Of a stretch of DNA of 64,000 bases, positions 32,448-44,403 are shown piece after piece. Origin of the DNA: Synechocystis sp. LKSZ1 (lineage in GTDB: Bacteria > Cyanobacteriota > Cyanobacteriia > Cyanobacteriales > Microcystaceae). The notes below the pieces were generated by a model that made no database searches, had not been told where the DNA came from, and saw only the letters and a program-made list of their open reading frames with translations. The position numbers and the translations under genes were made by a program. Numbering within the stretch: position 1 is the first letter of the stretch; every line of letters begins with the position of its first letter. Location of the stretch: NCBI RefSeq assembly GCF_040436315.1, contig NZ_AP031572.1:1240001-1304000 (forward strand), read 5' to 3'.

Positions 32448-33950
32448 TTAGTGACTGGTAATGCCGTCCATAATTTTTTCCATTACCTGGTCAACCGTAA
32501 AGCTGGCAGCTTTTTGGCGCGGAGGAAACTCCTCAAAAGTTGAAATAAATTGAGCAACCAACGGTTGAGCCGCTAATACCAAAGGAATGTGATCAAACAT
32601 CCAATCCCAATAGGTATTCGAGGTAATATCGGCACGTTCATAGGGATCGGTGCGGAGATTGAACAGTTTTGGCACGCGCAATACGACAAAAGGTTCAGCC
32701 CAAATTTGACAAGTACCTTGTACTCGTTGTTCCATGAAAACGGTTTTCCAATGATCATAACGTAGGGCCATTAAGTTGCCATCATCACTAAAGTAGAAAT
32801 ATTCTAAGCGTGGGCTTTTTTCAACTTCTCCTTTCAGGTAAGGAACAAGGTTATAGCCATCAAGATGTACCTTGAAAGTTTTATTCCCTGCCTGATGACC
32901 CTTGAGTAGTTTTTCCTTAATCTCTGGATCACCCGCGATCGCCAGCAAAGTCGGCAACCAATCCAGATGACTGACAATTTCATTGGAGATCGTACCCGGT
33001 TCAATCACACCAGGCCAGCGAATCAGTTCAGGAACCCGAAAGGCTCCTTCCCAGTTCGTATTTTTTTCACTGCGAAAAGGAGTCATCCCTGCATCGGGCC
33101 AGGAATTCATGTGGGGGCCGTTATCGGTGCTATACATAACAAACGTATTATCCGTAATACCGAGAGCATCGAGATAATCGAGCAATTCACCCACACATTT
33201 ATCGTGGTCAATCATCACATCGTGGTATTCCGACTGCCAACGTCCCGACTGCCCTAAACTCTCAGGTTTCGCATGGGTGCGGAAGTGCATATGGGTCGTA
33301 TTAAACCAGACAAAGAAGGGAATATCGGCCTTGACTTGGCGATCGATAAAATCCTTAGCTTTCGCTAGAACTTCATCATCAATAGTTTGCATCCGCTTTT
33401 TAGTCAATGCGCCCGTATCAACAATGCTTTGGGTCCCGTCGGGGTTCGCTTTACAGTCCAGTACACCGCGTGGGCCAAAATTTTTCTTGTAATTGGGAAA
33501 ATCAGCAGCAGGAGGATAGTCTCGTAGTTCGGGTTCTTCTTCGGCGTTGAGGTGATAGAGATTGCCGAAAAATTCATCAAAGCCGTGATTAGTCGGCAAC
33601 ATTTCATCTTTATCGCCCAGATGATTTTTACCAAATTGACCTGTGGCGTAACCCATCGGTTTCAGTAATTCGGCGATCGTGGGGTCTTCGGAACGCATTC
33701 CTAAATTGGCTCCAGGCATTCCGACTTTACTTAAGCCTGTGCGAAAAACGCATTGACCTGTAATAAAAGCCGATCGCCCTGCGGTACAACTTTGTTCGGC
33801 GTAGGAATCAGTGAATAGCATTCCTTCTTTAGCAATACGATCAATATTCGGGGTTTTGTAACCCATTAAGCCATGGGTGTAACAACTGAGATTGGATTGA
33901 CCAATATCGTCACCCCAGATAATCAAAATATTGGGTTGTTTTGTTGACAT
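32448..33950 (-). CDS. Sulfatase, apparently cytosolic, motif CTAGR
   Basis: 500 residues from ATG 33950 (MSTKQPNILIIWGDD); a six-codon upstream extension is possible. Alkaline-phosphatase superfamily sulfatase: metal-binding GDDIGQSN, modification motif QSCTAGRSAFITG (cysteine codon at 33786-33788), His pair FGKNHLGD, and FVMYSTDNGPHMNSW. The cysteine would be converted to formylglycine; the third motif position is Ala rather than the usual Pro. Unlike the larger sulfatase upstream, there is no signal peptide. The substrate is not deducible. Confidence 0.88.
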   Translation of the reverse strand: MSTKQPNILIIWGDDIGQSNLSCYTHGLMGYKTPNIDRIAKEGMLFTDSYAEQSCTAGRSAFITGQCVFRTGLSKVGMPGANLGMRSEDPTIAELLKPMGYATGQFGKNHLGDKDEMLPTNHGFDEFFGNLYHLNAEEEPELRDYPPAADFPNYKKNFGPRGVLDCKANPDGTQSIVDTGALTKKRMQTIDDEVLAKAKDFIDRQVKADIPFFVWFNTTHMHFRTHAKPESLGQSGRWQSEYHDVMIDHDKCVGELLDYLDALGITDNTFVMYSTDNGPHMNSWPDAGMTPFRSEKNTNWEGAFRVPELIRWPGVIEPGTISNEIVSHLDWLPTLLAIAGDPEIKEKLLKGHQAGNKTFKVHLDGYNLVPYLKGEVEKSPRLEYFYFSDDGNLMALRYDHWKTVFMEQRVQGTCQIWAEPFVVLRVPKLFNLRTDPYERADITSNTYWDWMFDHIPLVLAAQPLVAQFISTFEEFPPRQKAASFTVDQVMEKIMDGITSH

Positions 33951-34008
33951 TTTTGATTCCCCATTCAATATTAAATCGGAACTATTCGATTATAAATTAA
34001 TAAGCGGT

Positions 34009-37036: not shown

Positions 37037-39601
37037 CTACTCGGAAACGTGATTGTTTCGTTGGGCAGATTCGAGTTTCTTGATGTCTTGCGGTGACAGT
37101 TGCGGGCGATCGAGTTTCACCGTCAACTTGTTGAGCTTGCCAGTGAAAGCGAATGGCGGCTGATAATCTGCGTCGTTAACGCCGGTCAAGGTATCGGAGC
37201 CAATGTCGAAGCTCTCGTCCCATTGCAGGATCATCGGCAGGGTCTTGGGCATCGTCTTAGTAGCCACCACATTGCCGTCAACTTTGAGCGTACCAACGCC
37301 AGGTCGTCCAACACCGGAGAAGTCATTGAAAGCAAGGGTGCCGGCCCCGAGACCATCGTACTTGAAGTCGAACTCCACAGTGTGCTTGCCAGGGGAGAGC
37401 GCCTCGGTTCCCTCCCATTTTAGTCGCTCCAGGTCAACCATATTCCAGAGCCACACCGGTTTACCCTTGAGTAGGTAAAAGCCATAGCCACCAAAGCGTC
37501 CGCCGGAGGTCAGCATGATACCCTCCGCACCACCTTGGGGCACCTCAATGTCCGCCGTGACGGAATAGGAGGTGTTGAGCAGGAGTGGTGAATCGCCCTG
37601 GGGCAGGCCGACCATCGGCCGGGTGTAAACGAACTCGCTACGGCCTGCGGTGATGTTGGGTCGAGGTGCGACGATGCGGGCCGCCACCGAGGCATCCAAT
37701 GGGAAGACCTGGTGTTTCCGGGCCTCGGCAACGAACTCCTGCCTCATTTCCTTCACCTTCTGCGGGTTTTGCGCCGCAATGTCTTGAGCTTGGGTGAATT
37801 CATTGTTCAGGTTGTAGAGCTGGAATACTTGGTTGTTGAGCGGATCGGGATTAGCGGGGCCAAATGCGTCCCAGGGAGCGCGATTTACCTTAGTGCTGAG
37901 TACCCAACCGTCCTTATATAACGCCCACTGGCCCATCATTTCAAAGTACTGAGTAGTGTGACGCGAAGGGGCCTTGGCGTTCTTAGAGTCGAAGGTGTAG
38001 AGGAAACTGGTGCCTTCAATCGGCGACTGCCGGATGCCGTCAACCACTTCGGGGGGTCGGATGCCAGCGGCTTCGAGGATTGTCGGCACGACATCGATCA
38101 CATGGACAAACTGCTGGCGCAAAGCACCTTTATCCTTAATGCGCGCCGGCCACGACACCACCATGTTCTGGTTAATGCCGCCCAGCCGCGACGCATTTTG
38201 TTTGAACCAGTCAAATGGGGTATCGAAGGCCCACGACCAGCCAGCAGACATATGGTTGTAGGTCTGCTCAGTACCCCAAACATCATAAAACTTCAGCTGT
38301 ACATCGGCGGGCAATTTATTCAAGCCATTGAAGAAAGCCACCTCGTTTGGCGTACCCAGAGGGCCCCCCTCGGCACTGGTCCCGTTGTCGCCGTTGATGT
38401 AGATGATTAGTGTGTTGTCGAGCTTGCCGAGATCCTGGAATTGCTGAACCACTCGCCCGATCTCGTGATCGCTATAGGCGGCGTAGGCGGCGAAGACCTC
38501 GACCTGACGAATGAAGAGCTTCTTCTCGTCAGCCGTGAGTTGATCCCACGGTTTCAGGATGTCACTGGGCCAGGGCGTTAACTTGGCATCCTGGGGAATT
38601 ACGCCGAGTTTCTTCTGGTTCTCAAAGATGCGTTCCCGCAGTTTTTCATAGCCGTCGTCAAACAAGTGCAGGTTGTGAATTTTATCCACCCATTCTTTGG
38701 TCGGATGGTGCGGTGCATGGGTGGCGCCAGGGGCGTACTTGATGAAGATCGGCTTGCTTGGACTGATCTGATTCATTCGCGTCATGTAGTCGATCGCATC
38801 GTCAGCCATGGCGGTGATCAGGTTCCAACTGCCTTCCTGACCCTTGAAGGGATAAATCTGCGTCGTGTTGCGGAATAGGTTGGGTTGCCACTGGTTAGCA
38901 TCGCCACCGACAAAGCCATAGAAGTACTCGAAGCCCATGCCGGTCGGCCACTGGTCAAAGGGGCCAACCTGACTGGCCTGGAACGCGGGCACATTGTGAT
39001 CCTTACCAAACCAAGCGGTGGAATAGCCGTTGTCCTTTAGTATTCGGCCAATCGTCGCTTTGTCTCGTTCAATGATGCTGTTATAGCCGGGGAAGCCGGT
39101 GGACTGCTCAGAAATCACGCCAAACCCGGCAGAGTGATGATTACGTCCGGTAATCAGCGCCGCCCGTGTCGGTGAACACAATGCCGTCGAGAACATCCGG
39201 TTATAACGCAGGCCCTCTCTGGCAATGCGATCCATGGTCGGGGTTGGAATCACTCCGCCGAAGGTGCTCGGTACGCCGAACCCAGCGTCGTCAGTGATGA
39301 TCAGCAGTACGTTGGGGGCATCCTGGGGCGGTACAATGCGGGGTGCCCACCAGGGTTTGGACTGTAGGGCATCGTCCTTGATCACCCCGCCAAATTTGGG
39401 AGCAGGAGCAGGAAGTTGCTCCCCACTGATGGACATGGTGGCACTGGGCGAACCCGGTACGCCGTTAATTTTTTGGGCGAGGACAGGAAACCACCAGAAA
39501 CTAGAGGTCATGACCATCACCAGGGAGAGAAATCCCGCAAAGATTGGCTGAAAATGACCTGGCAGGAGGTACTTCAGAAGAGATTTGAGTTTGCTGAGCA
39601 T
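37037..39601 (-). CDS. Large exported arylsulfatase with C-terminal beta-sandwich
   Basis: 854 residues. An N-terminal signal or anchor helix (FAGFLSLVMVMTSSFWWFPV) precedes the sulfatase domain: metal site ITDDAGFG, canonical formylglycine motif CSPTRAALITGR with Cys142, His of WFGKDHNVPA, and INGDNGTSAEGG. Residues ~690-845 form a beta-sandwich resembling lectin-like domains (GGRFGGYGFYLLKG, TVEFDFKYDG). The maturase FGE is encoded 52 bp upstream on the same strand. The gene looks more GC-rich than both flanks and contains no HIP1 octamer, suggesting separate acquisition. Confidence 0.92.
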   Translation of the reverse strand: MLSKLKSLLKYLLPGHFQPIFAGFLSLVMVMTSSFWWFPVLAQKINGVPGSPSATMSISGEQLPAPAPKFGGVIKDDALQSKPWWAPRIVPPQDAPNVLLIITDDAGFGVPSTFGGVIPTPTMDRIAREGLRYNRMFSTALCSPTRAALITGRNHHSAGFGVISEQSTGFPGYNSIIERDKATIGRILKDNGYSTAWFGKDHNVPAFQASQVGPFDQWPTGMGFEYFYGFVGGDANQWQPNLFRNTTQIYPFKGQEGSWNLITAMADDAIDYMTRMNQISPSKPIFIKYAPGATHAPHHPTKEWVDKIHNLHLFDDGYEKLRERIFENQKKLGVIPQDAKLTPWPSDILKPWDQLTADEKKLFIRQVEVFAAYAAYSDHEIGRVVQQFQDLGKLDNTLIIYINGDNGTSAEGGPLGTPNEVAFFNGLNKLPADVQLKFYDVWGTEQTYNHMSAGWSWAFDTPFDWFKQNASRLGGINQNMVVSWPARIKDKGALRQQFVHVIDVVPTILEAAGIRPPEVVDGIRQSPIEGTSFLYTFDSKNAKAPSRHTTQYFEMMGQWALYKDGWVLSTKVNRAPWDAFGPANPDPLNNQVFQLYNLNNEFTQAQDIAAQNPQKVKEMRQEFVAEARKHQVFPLDASVAARIVAPRPNITAGRSEFVYTRPMVGLPQGDSPLLLNTSYSVTADIEVPQGGAEGIMLTSGGRFGGYGFYLLKGKPVWLWNMVDLERLKWEGTEALSPGKHTVEFDFKYDGLGAGTLAFNDFSGVGRPGVGTLKVDGNVVATKTMPKTLPMILQWDESFDIGSDTLTGVNDADYQPPFAFTGKLNKLTVKLDRPQLSPQDIKKLESAQRNNHVSE

Positions 39602-39653: not shown

Positions 39654-40634
39654 CTAGGATGTCTCCTCTGGAGTGGCCAAACGAAACCCGATATGGGAAG
39701 TCCCGGTATCAGGGGATTGGGCCTCTCGCGCCGAGGGCCGGTAACGACTGCAATAATTTTTAGCGCAGAGAAAGGAACCGCCTTTGATAACGTGTTTAGT
39801 AACGCCGGGATCGCGGGGATCAAAGCTCTGTTTTTTGTCAGCAACCCAGGGATTAATTTTTCCCGCCAACTCATCATGGCCGGGGGCATACCAGTCTTGA
39901 GTCCACTCCCACACATTGCCGGTCATGTCGTACAGGCCGTAACCGTTAGGGGAAAAGGAAGCGACGGGAGCTGTACCTAAATAGCCGTCCTTTCGGGTAT
40001 TGGTGACTGGAAATTTTCCCTGCCAAGTATTAGCCTTTTGAGGGGAATAGGTACTACCCCAGCTAAAAACCTGGTCAGTTAAGCCCCCCCGCGCTGCGAA
40101 TTCCCATTGGGCTTCCGTTGGCAAGGATTTACCGGCCCAGGCCGCGTAGGCTTGGGCATCCTCGTAGGCGATATGAACGACAGGATGATTTTCACGACCG
40201 GTAAGGTCACTATCAGGCCCCTCCGGATGTCGCCAGTTGGCCCCAGTCACCCAATGCCACCAACTAAGTTCGGTAACGGGTTGATCGGGAGGGACGGGAC
40301 GAAACACCACCGAACCGGGTTGTCGTTCTTCCTCGCTGAGGTCAGGAAACTGTTCTACCGAAAGGGGACGTTCGGCGACCGTGACATAACCAGTTGCCTG
40401 AACAAATTGAGCAAATTGGGCGTTGGTGATTTCATGACTATCCATACAAAACGCATTCACTGTAACGGCTTCGGCAGCTCGTTCCTCTATCCATTGGTTA
40501 TCGGCTCCCATCCGAAATGTTCCCCCAGGAATGACCACCATCTCTTCAGGGCAAGCTAAAACCATTGGCTCTAGCAATAGCCAGGCAATAATCGCTAAAC
40601 CCAAAATCCATAATTGCTTCGGAAATACAGCCAT
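39654..40634 (-). CDS. Formylglycine-generating enzyme, apparently exported
   Basis: 326 residues of SUMF1/FGE fold. Family motifs: PGGTFRMGAD, FCMDSHEITNAQFAQFV, HPVVHIAYEDAQAYAAWAGK, LPTEAQWEFAARGG, GNVWEWTQDWY and the active region GGSFLCAKNYCSRYRPSARE with Cys290 and Cys295, matching the copper-binding Cys336/Cys341 pair of human FGE. It converts the cysteine of CxPxR sulfatases to formylglycine. Residues 8-28 are strongly hydrophobic and end VLAC, a loose lipobox, so the enzyme seems exported or lipid-anchored, unlike most bacterial FGEs. It lies directly upstream of the large sulfatase. Confidence 0.93.
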   Translation of the reverse strand: MAVFPKQLWILGLAIIAWLLLEPMVLACPEEMVVIPGGTFRMGADNQWIEERAAEAVTVNAFCMDSHEITNAQFAQFVQATGYVTVAERPLSVEQFPDLSEEERQPGSVVFRPVPPDQPVTELSWWHWVTGANWRHPEGPDSDLTGRENHPVVHIAYEDAQAYAAWAGKSLPTEAQWEFAARGGLTDQVFSWGSTYSPQKANTWQGKFPVTNTRKDGYLGTAPVASFSPNGYGLYDMTGNVWEWTQDWYAPGHDELAGKINPWVADKKQSFDPRDPGVTKHVIKGGSFLCAKNYCSRYRPSAREAQSPDTGTSHIGFRLATPEETS

Positions 40635-40707: not shown

Positions 40708-42048
40708 TTAAGCAATTTTTTGGATAGCGGGTGGATTCCACGTTCCATTTAAGACGGCGGGTTTAGGAGAATACAAACGCAGGGTAACTCCCAATTGACC
40801 CTGGGGAGGAGAGGGCAACCAATTCGTTTCTTGATCCTTGCCAGGGGATTGGGCTTGAATGTAAATATCCAAAGAACCATCGGCATTGTATTGCAAATTA
40901 GAGCGATCGCCTAAGGCAAAACGATTGAGGGAATTGGGGACTTGATACCCTTCGGCATCGTACATCGTAATAGACCAAAACGCCTCTACAGGAGGTAGTT
41001 CCTCTGGCTCAAAATGCAAGATATAGTTATTCTCCCCTTGTAAGGGTTTGCCCTCCGCATCACAAACATTTAAAGGATAAATGGCATCCTCAGGGCAATT
41101 TGCCCCTAAACCCACCATCGTAATAATGGCCCGTTTGAGATAATCATTCCCATACACGCCTACCGTATTGGTATTCATCTGCCAACCATTAATAACTGGA
41201 GCAAGGGTTGGCGTTTTCTCCTTCATGATCTGCAATCCATCTACTACCGCCCGTTTTAATCCAGCTTGTATGGCCGAAGAAGCATTATTAAAATCAAAAC
41301 TTTCCCCTACTTTCAGCCCAATACGCTCTAAACGGGCCAGAATAGACCAATCAGTAACGTGAGGAGTGTGTAATTTCATCAACTCTGCTCCGTAGCTGAA
41401 ATACTGTTCTGCTGTCAGGGTGTTGACCTGAGTCAGAGGATCCGTTTTCATATCTACGGTGGGATCAATTACGGTTTTGACAGGAGTAACAGTTTTACCC
41501 CATTGCGAAAGTGGCGTTAATTTAAGGCTATCCTGAAGGTGATTCACTGCTCCATAGTCTTCGACCCCATTGGTTTGAATTCGTCCAATAATCCAGAAGT
41601 AGGGCGTGGGAGACTCAATTTTCCCGACACCTTCAGGTAATTCCCCTTGCCATTTTTGCGGGACAACGGCGTAATTTTGGGCATGGGTGCCACTGGTACG
41701 CTTACCAGGAACCGCAAACACATCCGTCCACATATCCAAGAGAGGCAGAAGATAATACCGTCCCTGGGTATCTGGCAGAGACAGGATCATCGGCTCCGGA
41801 GTAATATCAACCCATGCCAGCGTATATAACGTATCGAAATTGGGACGCACGACAACTCGTAAATCGGCAGGAGGAAATTGTCGCAAACTCTGAAATTCAT
41901 TCACAGGGCCAAATCCAGGCTTTTCTCCTGATAGATAGTTGGTAAAAACCTTGCGGGATACATCCATCGTGATTAAGGGATAGAAATAGTGATAAGCCTC
42001 AATACCGATTTCATAGGCTTGTTTTTCGCTGACAAGGTTCATATTCAT
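40708..42048 (-). CDS. DUF1254/DUF1214 protein, no signal peptide
   Basis: 446 residues. The N-terminal DUF1254 domain (QAYEIGIEAYHYFYPLITMD, RPNFDTLYTLAWVDIT) is followed by a C-terminal DUF1214 domain (AFWSITMYDAEGYQVPNSLNRFALGDR, DIYIQAQSPG, LGVTLRLYSP). No signal peptide precedes the domain, unlike the second copy at 42781-44403. These proteins occur widely near sulfatases and hydrolases, but no reaction is established. HIP1 at 40913. Confidence 0.85.
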   Translation of the reverse strand: MNMNLVSEKQAYEIGIEAYHYFYPLITMDVSRKVFTNYLSGEKPGFGPVNEFQSLRQFPPADLRVVVRPNFDTLYTLAWVDITPEPMILSLPDTQGRYYLLPLLDMWTDVFAVPGKRTSGTHAQNYAVVPQKWQGELPEGVGKIESPTPYFWIIGRIQTNGVEDYGAVNHLQDSLKLTPLSQWGKTVTPVKTVIDPTVDMKTDPLTQVNTLTAEQYFSYGAELMKLHTPHVTDWSILARLERIGLKVGESFDFNNASSAIQAGLKRAVVDGLQIMKEKTPTLAPVINGWQMNTNTVGVYGNDYLKRAIITMVGLGANCPEDAIYPLNVCDAEGKPLQGENNYILHFEPEELPPVEAFWSITMYDAEGYQVPNSLNRFALGDRSNLQYNADGSLDIYIQAQSPGKDQETNWLPSPPQGQLGVTLRLYSPKPAVLNGTWNPPAIQKIA

Positions 42049-42780: not shown

Positions 42781-44403
42781 TTATTTCAGTAATTCGATCT
42801 CCCCTGGTCGCCAAGTTTTGTCAAACCAAGGTTCTAATGGGCCGTAAAGCCGAAGAATCGTGTTCCAACCCGTGCCCGGAATCGTCTGCACCCAATTATT
42901 CTCCTTACCAGCGGCCGGTTTTGGCCCGAAATAGATATCCACAGATCCATCAGCATTAACCAAAAGCCCCTTCGTCTGACTACTGACACTGGGAAACTGT
43001 TGATCCGTCTGAATCTGCGATCGCGTCTGGTTGCTATAAAGAATGACTGACCAGAAATCTTTAACAGGAATATTGGGCGGTAAACGGAGACGATAACTCT
43101 TGCCACCATCGAGGAGATTACCCGTGTTATCACGGGCTGTCCAAGCATATTGAGAACCCAATCCGACCATTTTTTCTTCCATCGCAGGAGTAACCCCCGT
43201 CGCCATGAAATAGTAATAGATATAAGCATCCAGGTTCAGAACATCAGGCTGGGTTTGGAACTTATAGCCACCAATGAAAGGTAACTGCCAAGCACTGTTC
43301 GGATAGTAATAAGCCTCCTTCTGTCGATTGTGAAAGGAAATTGCCCGTGCCGTCGCATCCCCCACTGCCGCCGCTTCCGTCAGAATTTTTTTCATCCGTT
43401 CATCAGGCTTGAAAGGTTTGCCTTTTTGAATACCAATAGAGGCGTAGTAACCCAGTCGAATTTGATCGAGAGATTCACTCGGCTCTTCTTGTACCACTTG
43501 ATTGAGCAGTTCCCAGAAACGATAATCGGCAGGTGCAACCGTATTAAACGGCTTGCCCGACATATTCACAAAATTCAAAGCAGGGGGATTGTTGGCACTG
43601 TTGAGGGGATAAATTTTTGTGTTCTTTGTCACCAACTCAACCCCCGGTTTCGGGTCGCCCTTGACCAAAAAACTGCGCCAAGGAATCCAAATATTAAAAG
43701 TCGGTGATTTCACCACGTTGTAACCCGAGGGAATTTCTCCTTTGTAGCCTGGGGGTAAAAACAGGTACTTTCCGCCTTGTCCCTTATCAGGGCCAGTAAT
43801 GCCGACATCAATCACCCAGCGAAACCAAGTATCATTAACGGTTCCTAATACTTTTGGGGGAACTTCTAAGACTAACGGCCCCTTCGTCAGATCAAGCCAT
43901 GTCCAACTATAAACGGTGTTGTCATTGGCAGTCAGGAAAATTGATCGCGAATCCAAAAGTTGCTCGAAAATTGGCACAACGGTATTCACTGGCCCCAAGG
44001 TACGGATCGCGTTACGGTTGGCCGCTTGGCTAACGGCAGGTATTGCCAATAAGTAAGCTTGAACAGCCCGTTGAAAGTCGAGGTTATCGTAGAGTTTTTT
44101 CGCTGTTGCTTCGTCTGGAAAACCATCAAAGAAATTGAGCGTTCCTAGACGAGTCTCCACTTTGGCGGGTGACGCAATTCCTGGGGGGAGGGGAGTTGAG
44201 AACTTTAATTTAGGGTTGGCAGGATCACCTGTCAGAGATTGTCCGTTACTGGGGGAAGCTATCGCTATCAAGTTGGCTGTGACAATTAGCAATCCAATGG
44301 TTAGCCTGTTGAGTGATACACGCTTGTTCGTATTTTGTTTTTTGGCGAGTTGCAGTTGCTTAAACCACAGCCAATACAGGGAAGAGAAGAAATAGGAAAG
44401 CAT
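42781..44403 (-). CDS. Exported DUF1254/DUF1214 protein
   Basis: 540 residues. A hydrophobic N-terminal segment (LTIGLLIVTANLIAIASPS, residues 33-51) indicates export. DUF1254 spans roughly residues 120-250 (DNTVYSWTWLDLTKGPLVLE) and DUF1214 roughly 410-535 (KDFWSVILYSNQTRSQIQ, DIYFGPKPAAGKENNW, NTILRLYGPLEPWF). It is a divergent paralogue of the 446-residue protein downstream; the compartments differ. HIP1 at 43017-43024. No catalytic mechanism is known for the family. Confidence 0.85.
   Translation of the reverse strand: MLSYFFSSLYWLWFKQLQLAKKQNTNKRVSLNRLTIGLLIVTANLIAIASPSNGQSLTGDPANPKLKFSTPLPPGIASPAKVETRLGTLNFFDGFPDEATAKKLYDNLDFQRAVQAYLLAIPAVSQAANRNAIRTLGPVNTVVPIFEQLLDSRSIFLTANDNTVYSWTWLDLTKGPLVLEVPPKVLGTVNDTWFRWVIDVGITGPDKGQGGKYLFLPPGYKGEIPSGYNVVKSPTFNIWIPWRSFLVKGDPKPGVELVTKNTKIYPLNSANNPPALNFVNMSGKPFNTVAPADYRFWELLNQVVQEEPSESLDQIRLGYYASIGIQKGKPFKPDERMKKILTEAAAVGDATARAISFHNRQKEAYYYPNSAWQLPFIGGYKFQTQPDVLNLDAYIYYYFMATGVTPAMEEKMVGLGSQYAWTARDNTGNLLDGGKSYRLRLPPNIPVKDFWSVILYSNQTRSQIQTDQQFPSVSSQTKGLLVNADGSVDIYFGPKPAAGKENNWVQTIPGTGWNTILRLYGPLEPWFDKTWRPGEIELLK

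Follow-up and report, generated by a model that had tools for sequence, protein, structure and literature searches.

A predicted exported formylglycine-generating enzyme encoded beside a Sec-type sulfatase in Synechocystis sp. LKSZ1

Introduction

In the textbook view, the prokaryotic formylglycine-generating enzyme (FGE) belongs to the reducing cytosol. A 64,000-nucleotide stretch of Synechocystis sp. LKSZ1 (NZ_AP031572.1, positions 1,240,001 to 1,304,000; hereafter the window, in whose own numbering all coordinates are given) carries an FGE gene that appears to begin with a signal peptide, and the gene beside it encodes a sulfatase that appears to do the same. This arrangement raises the question of the compartment in which the enzyme meets its substrate. 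An earlier reading of the DNA, referred to here as the original prediction, had proposed that both proteins are exported and had regarded such an FGE as an exception among bacteria. Here we examine the gene, its neighbor and their relatives.

Results

The window gene encodes a catalytic FGE

The open reading frame at 39654–40634 on the minus strand opens with ATG and encodes a protein of 326 amino acids. Its product matches the FGE-sulfatase domain PF03781 far above the Pfam cut-off (275.8 bits against 23.3, E 5e-82), and its top match in the PDB is human FGE (SUMF1; E 3e-79). An AlphaFold2 model of the mature chain, computed from 42 aligned sequences with a pLDDT of 85.7, has the human, T. 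curvata and S. coelicolor FGEs as its nearest folds, and the Foldseek comparison with the human enzyme (E 3.5e-30, TM 0.78) places it within the FGE fold. The catalytic C-x4-C pair is found in the motif GGSFLCAKNYC and is kept in all 122 FGEs that we aligned. Namely, these are Cys290 (codon 39765–39767, minus strand) and Cys295 (39750–39752, minus strand), which we take to be the catalytic, copper-binding residues, as known from solved FGEs. Scores against the NCBIfam models of related families were well below their cut-offs, at 86 of 500 bits for PvdO, 161 of 350 for GldK and 98 of 360 for EgtB. Judged by sequence and modeled fold, the product is a true copper-type FGE and the predicted maturase of the CSPTR sulfatase encoded 52 bp away.

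The FGE carries a translated export signal

The protein starts with MAVFPKQLWILGLAIIAWLLLEPMVLA followed by C, the hydrophobic N-terminus ending in VLAC that the original prediction had described. Residues 1–27 (40554–40634, minus strand) form a putative signal peptide with probable SPI cleavage between VLA and C. As a measure of export we used a heuristic rather than SignalP, calling a signal where the 12-residue Kyte-Doolittle mean near the N-terminus was ≥2.0. The hydrophobic core of the window FGE reaches 2.90, equal to the exported proteins of the window, and the threshold is passed by 44/44 FGEs of the window clade and 0/48 FGEs of the cytosolic type. Among 18 window open reading frames assumed to be cytosolic, 17 score <2.0, the exception being an FAD enzyme at 2.37. 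The cytosolic prokaryotic FGE, as defined in print, has no export signal; the window FGE has a signal peptide.

The original prediction had itself named a true start beyond the hydrophobic stretch as its weak point, and this objection fails. The ATG, which has an in-frame stop five codons upstream, aligns with zero indels with the ATG of an orthologue from the same genus (locus L119 of genome G078). Over the first 27 codons the two genes differ by 6, 8 and 16 substitutions at codon positions 1, 2 and 3, whereas only 20 of the 60 bases upstream of the ATG are identical. Because the substitutions are biased towards the third position and no indel occurs, against upstream bases that are poorly kept, the hydrophobic stretch must be translated, which rules out a start downstream of it. 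Sequence comparison supports export of the window FGE, with a Sec-type sulfatase as its partner.

The partner sulfatase contains a single cysteine

The partner gene lies at 37037–39601 on the same, minus strand, downstream of the FGE gene, and the 52 bp between the two reading frames are as originally predicted. It encodes a type I (FGly) sulfatase of 854 amino acids, with a PF00884 match of 174.5 bits (E 4e-51) and the C-x-P-x-R signature in the form CSPTRAALITG. The sulfatase also has the signal sequence of its own that had been claimed for it; its N-terminus scores 2.54, and from hydrophobicity and inspection of the sequence we assign the signal peptide to residues 1–42 (39476–39601, minus strand), with cleavage placed by eye after FPVLA. 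Cys142 (codon 39176–39178, minus strand), predicted from the motif to be the formylglycine site, is the only cysteine in the protein.

This scarcity of cysteine extends to the relatives. Among 46 sulfatases beside exported FGEs, the median number of cysteines other than the catalytic one is 0, and 31 have none; in unsignalled sulfatases the number is 3–10 (19 counted). Tat sulfatases are likewise poor in cysteine (median 0.5, 12 counted), as expected of proteins that end up outside. Two rows with exported FGEs and one with a cytosolic FGE, either cut off or with an unparsable motif, were omitted from these counts, as were five picocyanobacterial rows.

A cysteine pair marks the exported cyanobacterial FGEs

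The FGEs of the window clade share two further cysteines, Cys28 (codon 40551–40553, minus strand) and Cys63 (40446–40448, minus strand), with an identical distribution in the alignment of 122 sequences. Both are present in 44/44 members of the exported cyanobacterial clade and in 0/78 sequences outside it, comprising 48 cytosolic and 30 other exported FGEs. Because the pair covaries and is confined to the exported clade, it is probably a disulfide. The FGE domain holds 3–6 cysteines in the exported type and 5–12 in the cytosolic type, and an insert with vicinal Cys-Cys upstream of the catalytic motif, found in 46/48 and 45/48 cytosolic FGEs, is absent from the exported ones. The Cys28/Cys63 pair and the single-cysteine sulfatase are signs independent of the signal peptide, and they point to an oxidizing compartment.

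Exported FGEs form one side of the sampled FGE tree

Relatives were gathered by scanning one genome per species, which gave 80 loci, and by scanning 386 cyanobacterial genomes, of which 45 had an FGE match and 40 loci were taken with their flanks; the resulting set is biased towards the kin of the window. Of the 122 catalytic FGEs, 69 were exported by rule, and 74 after five borderline cases (L031, L053, L056, L077 and L080) were moved by eye from unsignalled to exported; the other 48 are cytosolic. The exported side includes Cyanobacteriota, Pseudomonadota, Bacteroidota, Planctomycetota, Verrucomicrobiota and Armatimonadota. The view that bacterial FGEs act in the cytosol is stated in print, in the available portion of a study that used S. 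coelicolor FGE and describes the prokaryotic enzyme as cytosolic and copper-using (PMC4505483), but 74/122 relatives carry an export signal, and the window FGE is a member of one whole side of the tree, not the oddity that it had been taken for.

In a quick tree of the FGE domain (128 rows), a single branch divides exported from cytosolic FGEs with an SH-aLRT of 99. Taken alone, one state change in 128 sequences would suggest a single origin of exported FGEs. This reading is undercut by the human and T. curvata enzymes, which, when added to the tree, fall on the exported side as sisters (60% identical) and not with the window clade. The T. curvata FGE is taken as cytosolic. There is therefore a third, unsampled FGE branch in this tree; the count of one change depends on sampling and the split is not final. 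On the cytosolic side, closely related unsignalled sulfatases accompany the FGEs of a member of the Nostocaceae (L033) and one of the Cellvibrionaceae (L048), a likeness that suggests transfer of an FGE-sulfatase pair between phyla.

Exported FGEs adjoin Sec-type sulfatases

We then compared each FGE with the nearest sulfatase encoded ≤3 kb away. By rule, the sulfatases beside exported FGEs were 45 Sec, 3 without signal and 0 Tat, and those beside cytosolic FGEs were 23 without signal, 10 Tat and 4 Sec. Eight sulfatase labels were changed by eye (L006, L073, L123, L065 and L084 to Sec; L041 and L145 to Tat; L048 to unsignalled). With these corrections the exported FGEs were paired with Sec-type sulfatases in 48/48 cases (45 by rule, 3 by eye), and none had a Tat or unsignalled nearest sulfatase. 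The cytosolic FGEs, with the corrections and five picocyanobacterial pairs added, adjoined 20 unsignalled, 12 Tat and 10 Sec sulfatases (n=42). These counts leave out seven sulfatase ORFs without a parsable domain start (one each at L045, L060, L017, L036 and L071, two at L006), 37 FGEs without a sulfatase ≤3 kb away, and L229, where the gap is >3 kb.

Fisher's test gives 6e-16 for this pattern but ignores relatedness, and we do not rely on it. On the sulfatase tree, 2–5 independent pairs go the same way and 0 the opposite way (median p 0.125), so that the tree-corrected association is consistent but underpowered and not significant. The converse rule, that a cytosolic FGE never stands beside a Sec-type sulfatase, is broken by the 10/42 cases noted above, five from Proteobacteria and five from picocyanobacteria (L228, L230, L231, L232 and L248). 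Since such pairs exist, an exported FGE is not obligatory for a Sec sulfatase. In the picocyanobacterial pairs, a divergent, unsignalled FGE on a long branch adjoins a CAPTR sulfatase of Sec or lipoprotein type.

Maturases and sulfatases within single genomes

All 24 cyanobacterial genomes with an exported FGE also encode a Sec-type sulfatase (in G170 by eye), and none was found in the ten genomes whose only FGE is a cytosolic one of non-picocyanobacterial type. In this survey one sulfatase of G169, Tat by rule, was reassigned to Sec by eye (core 2.98, with RR right at the start), and six sulfatase ORFs without a recognized motif were left out of the rule-based classes. Of the 24 genomes, 18 have neither a cytosolic FGE nor an anaerobic-type maturase (anSME) over the cut-off, and in these the exported FGE is, as far as their sequences tell, the only known candidate sulfatase maturase. 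Four others (G147, G174, G302 and G312) encode two FGEs, an exported and a cytosolic one, and the sulfatase next to either is of the kind that corresponds to it. In G078, from the genus of the window, and in G033, an anSME (505 and 519 bits, cut-off 349) is encoded close to an unsignalled sulfatase. Like FGE, anSME makes formylglycine in bacterial sulfatases; it is a cytosolic radical SAM enzyme.

A simple rule by which every genome keeps a maturase for each compartment fails in eight genomes, the window genome among them. A second sulfatase at 32448–33968 (minus strand) is unsignalled, has the motif CTAGR and contains six cysteines, and the genome yielded neither a cytosolic FGE nor an anSME above the cut-off. 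The only strong match to TIGR03942 (G000:C1:3619895-3620926) was rejected as a GrrM/OscB radical SAM peptide maturase, with 621 bits to TIGR04261. Seven further genomes (G076, G101, G143, G151, G243, G336 and G374) share this state, giving 8/24 exported-FGE genomes that have an unsignalled Cys-type sulfatase and no visible cytosolic maturase.

Six of these eight unsignalled sulfatases belong to the class CSPTRSC or close variants. The same class is present in eight genomes without an FGE match at E 1e-40 (G027, G045, G070, G099, G103, G125, G129 and G326; G197, with an unparsed motif, was left out), and no anSME was found in them at E 1e-60. The class therefore seems independent of the exported FGE. 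Unsignalled CSPTRSC sulfatases without an FGE match or anSME are seen at L238–L242 and L245, and the class also occurs in six exported-FGE genomes. The unsignalled sulfatases of the window genome and of G143 are of the CTAGR type; they may be matured by some FGE active in the cytosol, or may themselves be inactive.

Other features of the neighborhood were recorded in passing. The G078 homologue of the 32448–33968 sulfatase lies near the anSME gene (L224 6187-7434), beside a symporter-like gene. Two DUF1254/DUF1214 proteins are encoded beside the window FGE (40708–42048 and 42781–44403, minus strand), only one of which has a signal sequence, and a look-alike was noticed by eye ~6.4 kb from the anSME gene in L225.

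Discussion

Sec exports its chains unfolded. The explanation that we favor, and consider likely, is that the window FGE is exported by Sec, folds outside and makes formylglycine at Cys142 of the sulfatase after translocation. The copper-dependent enzyme would leave the cytoplasm unfolded and would fold beyond the cytoplasmic membrane, where Cys28 and Cys63 would form a structural disulfide and copper would be acquired. The adjoining sulfatase would also come through Sec as an unfolded chain, its Cys142 having no other cysteine to pair with, and the FGE would oxidize Cys142 to formylglycine before or during sulfatase folding. If the FGE acts outside on the incoming sulfatase, then formylglycine would be made in the compartment in which the sulfatase folds. 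The signal sequences, the catalytic and clade-specific cysteine pairs, the cysteine-poor sulfatase and the pairing pattern are all features of sequence, and from them we infer the location, the disulfide, the copper loading and the post-export conversion of Cys142. The simplest account of these features is that Cys142 is modified once the sulfatase has been translocated.

A different account, which we regard as unlikely, is that a fraction of the signal-peptide FGE folds in the cytosol and acts there prior to export, modifying nascent sulfatases both signalled and unsignalled. This would explain the unsignalled sulfatase at 32448–33968, for which the genome offers no other maturase, as well as the similar case of G143; the unsignalled sulfatases without a cytosolic maturase in the window genome and seven others fit some FGE working in the cytosol, and elsewhere cytosolic FGEs do adjoin Sec-type sulfatases. 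However, the invariant Cys28/Cys63 pair suggests a protein that works oxidized, the nearest sulfatase of an exported FGE is Tat or unsignalled in 0/48 cases, and the cyanobacterial cytosol contains little copper according to the accessible part of PMC4192464.

It is also rather improbable that the FGE is held at the membrane, either as a periplasm-facing lipoprotein (SPII at Cys28) or by an uncleaved anchor, with the mechanism otherwise as we propose. VLAC fits a loose lipobox, and some Bacteroidota relatives resemble lipoproteins (L049, L055, L069, L070 and L079). In the window clade, however, a lipobox at the conserved cysteine is found in 0/44 FGEs in its strict form and in 7/44 in its loose form, the only form that the window FGE fits, and the conserved Cys28 position lies up to 32 residues past the hydrophobic core. 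We therefore rejected the lipoprotein reading of VLAC; with the lipobox unconserved and Cys28 covarying with Cys63, Cys28 is more plausibly one partner in a conserved disulfide.

The exported proteins of FGE fold include PvdO, which acts on pyoverdine precursors. That the window protein likewise has another substrate and stands beside the sulfatase incidentally is highly improbable: PvdO and OCTIN are indeed exported FGE-fold proteins without sulfatase roles (for OCTIN, the consulted part of PMC5915273, which also reports that it has no catalytic cysteines), but the catalytic pair is universal among the relatives, PvdO, GldK, EgtB and the other NCBIfam families matched score far under their cut-offs, the best fold matches are genuine FGEs, and 24/24 cyanobacterial genomes with an exported FGE have a Sec-type sulfatase.

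The proposed route of FGE and sulfatase through the membrane has its closest parallel in human FGE, which shares the fold, the catalytic cysteine pair and a signal peptide, and acts on sulfatases after their translocation into an oxidizing compartment, as the window FGE would. It differs in being only ~43% identical, in lacking the Cys28/Cys63 pair and in belonging to the eukaryotic ER. The studied bacterial FGEs, from S. coelicolor, T. curvata and M. tuberculosis, share family, fold and copper chemistry with the window FGE, which is distinguished by its predicted export. Closer in sequence (50–57% identical) and also encoded beside sulfatases are the cytosolic FGEs of Nostocales and Cyanobium-type cyanobacteria. 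Unlike the window FGE, these have no signal peptide and no Cys28/Cys63, possess the extra vicinal cysteine pair and mostly adjoin Tat or unsignalled sulfatases. GldK/PorK, like PvdO and OCTIN, places the FGE fold outside the cytoplasm; none of the three is a sulfatase maturase.

A precedent for the choice of compartment exists in Synechocystis itself. As described in the portion of PMC4192464 available, Cu-CucA folds in the periplasm after Sec export, whereas Mn-MncA folds in the cytosol and leaves by Tat, avoiding copper; the choice of Sec or Tat sets where each protein folds and with it the access to copper, although these are metal cupins and not maturases. For the cyanobacterial genomes studied in Shark Bay mats, export was predicted for every sulfatase, and the accessible text gives localization for the sulfatases only and not for FGEs (PMC9723792). 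Within the open-access literature that we searched, we found no description of an exported catalytic bacterial FGE.

Considering the family as a whole, we lean towards the view that bacterial FGEs form two compartment-specific branches. One would be cytosolic and serve cytosolic, Tat and some Sec sulfatases; the other, spread over at least six phyla, would be exported and serve Sec sulfatases, with formylglycine made outside the cytoplasm as in the ER. The compartment of the maturase would then follow the compartment in which the sulfatase folds, some cyanobacteria keeping one maturase for each. If a large branch of FGEs does work outside the cytosol, formylglycine formation would be post-translocational in bacteria too, and the periplasmic supply of copper would limit sulfatase activation. 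Many of the Sec sulfatases left unmodified on expression in E. coli may then require an FGE that suits their compartment, and why the ER enzyme operates in an oxidizing compartment would become a question accessible to bacterial genetics.
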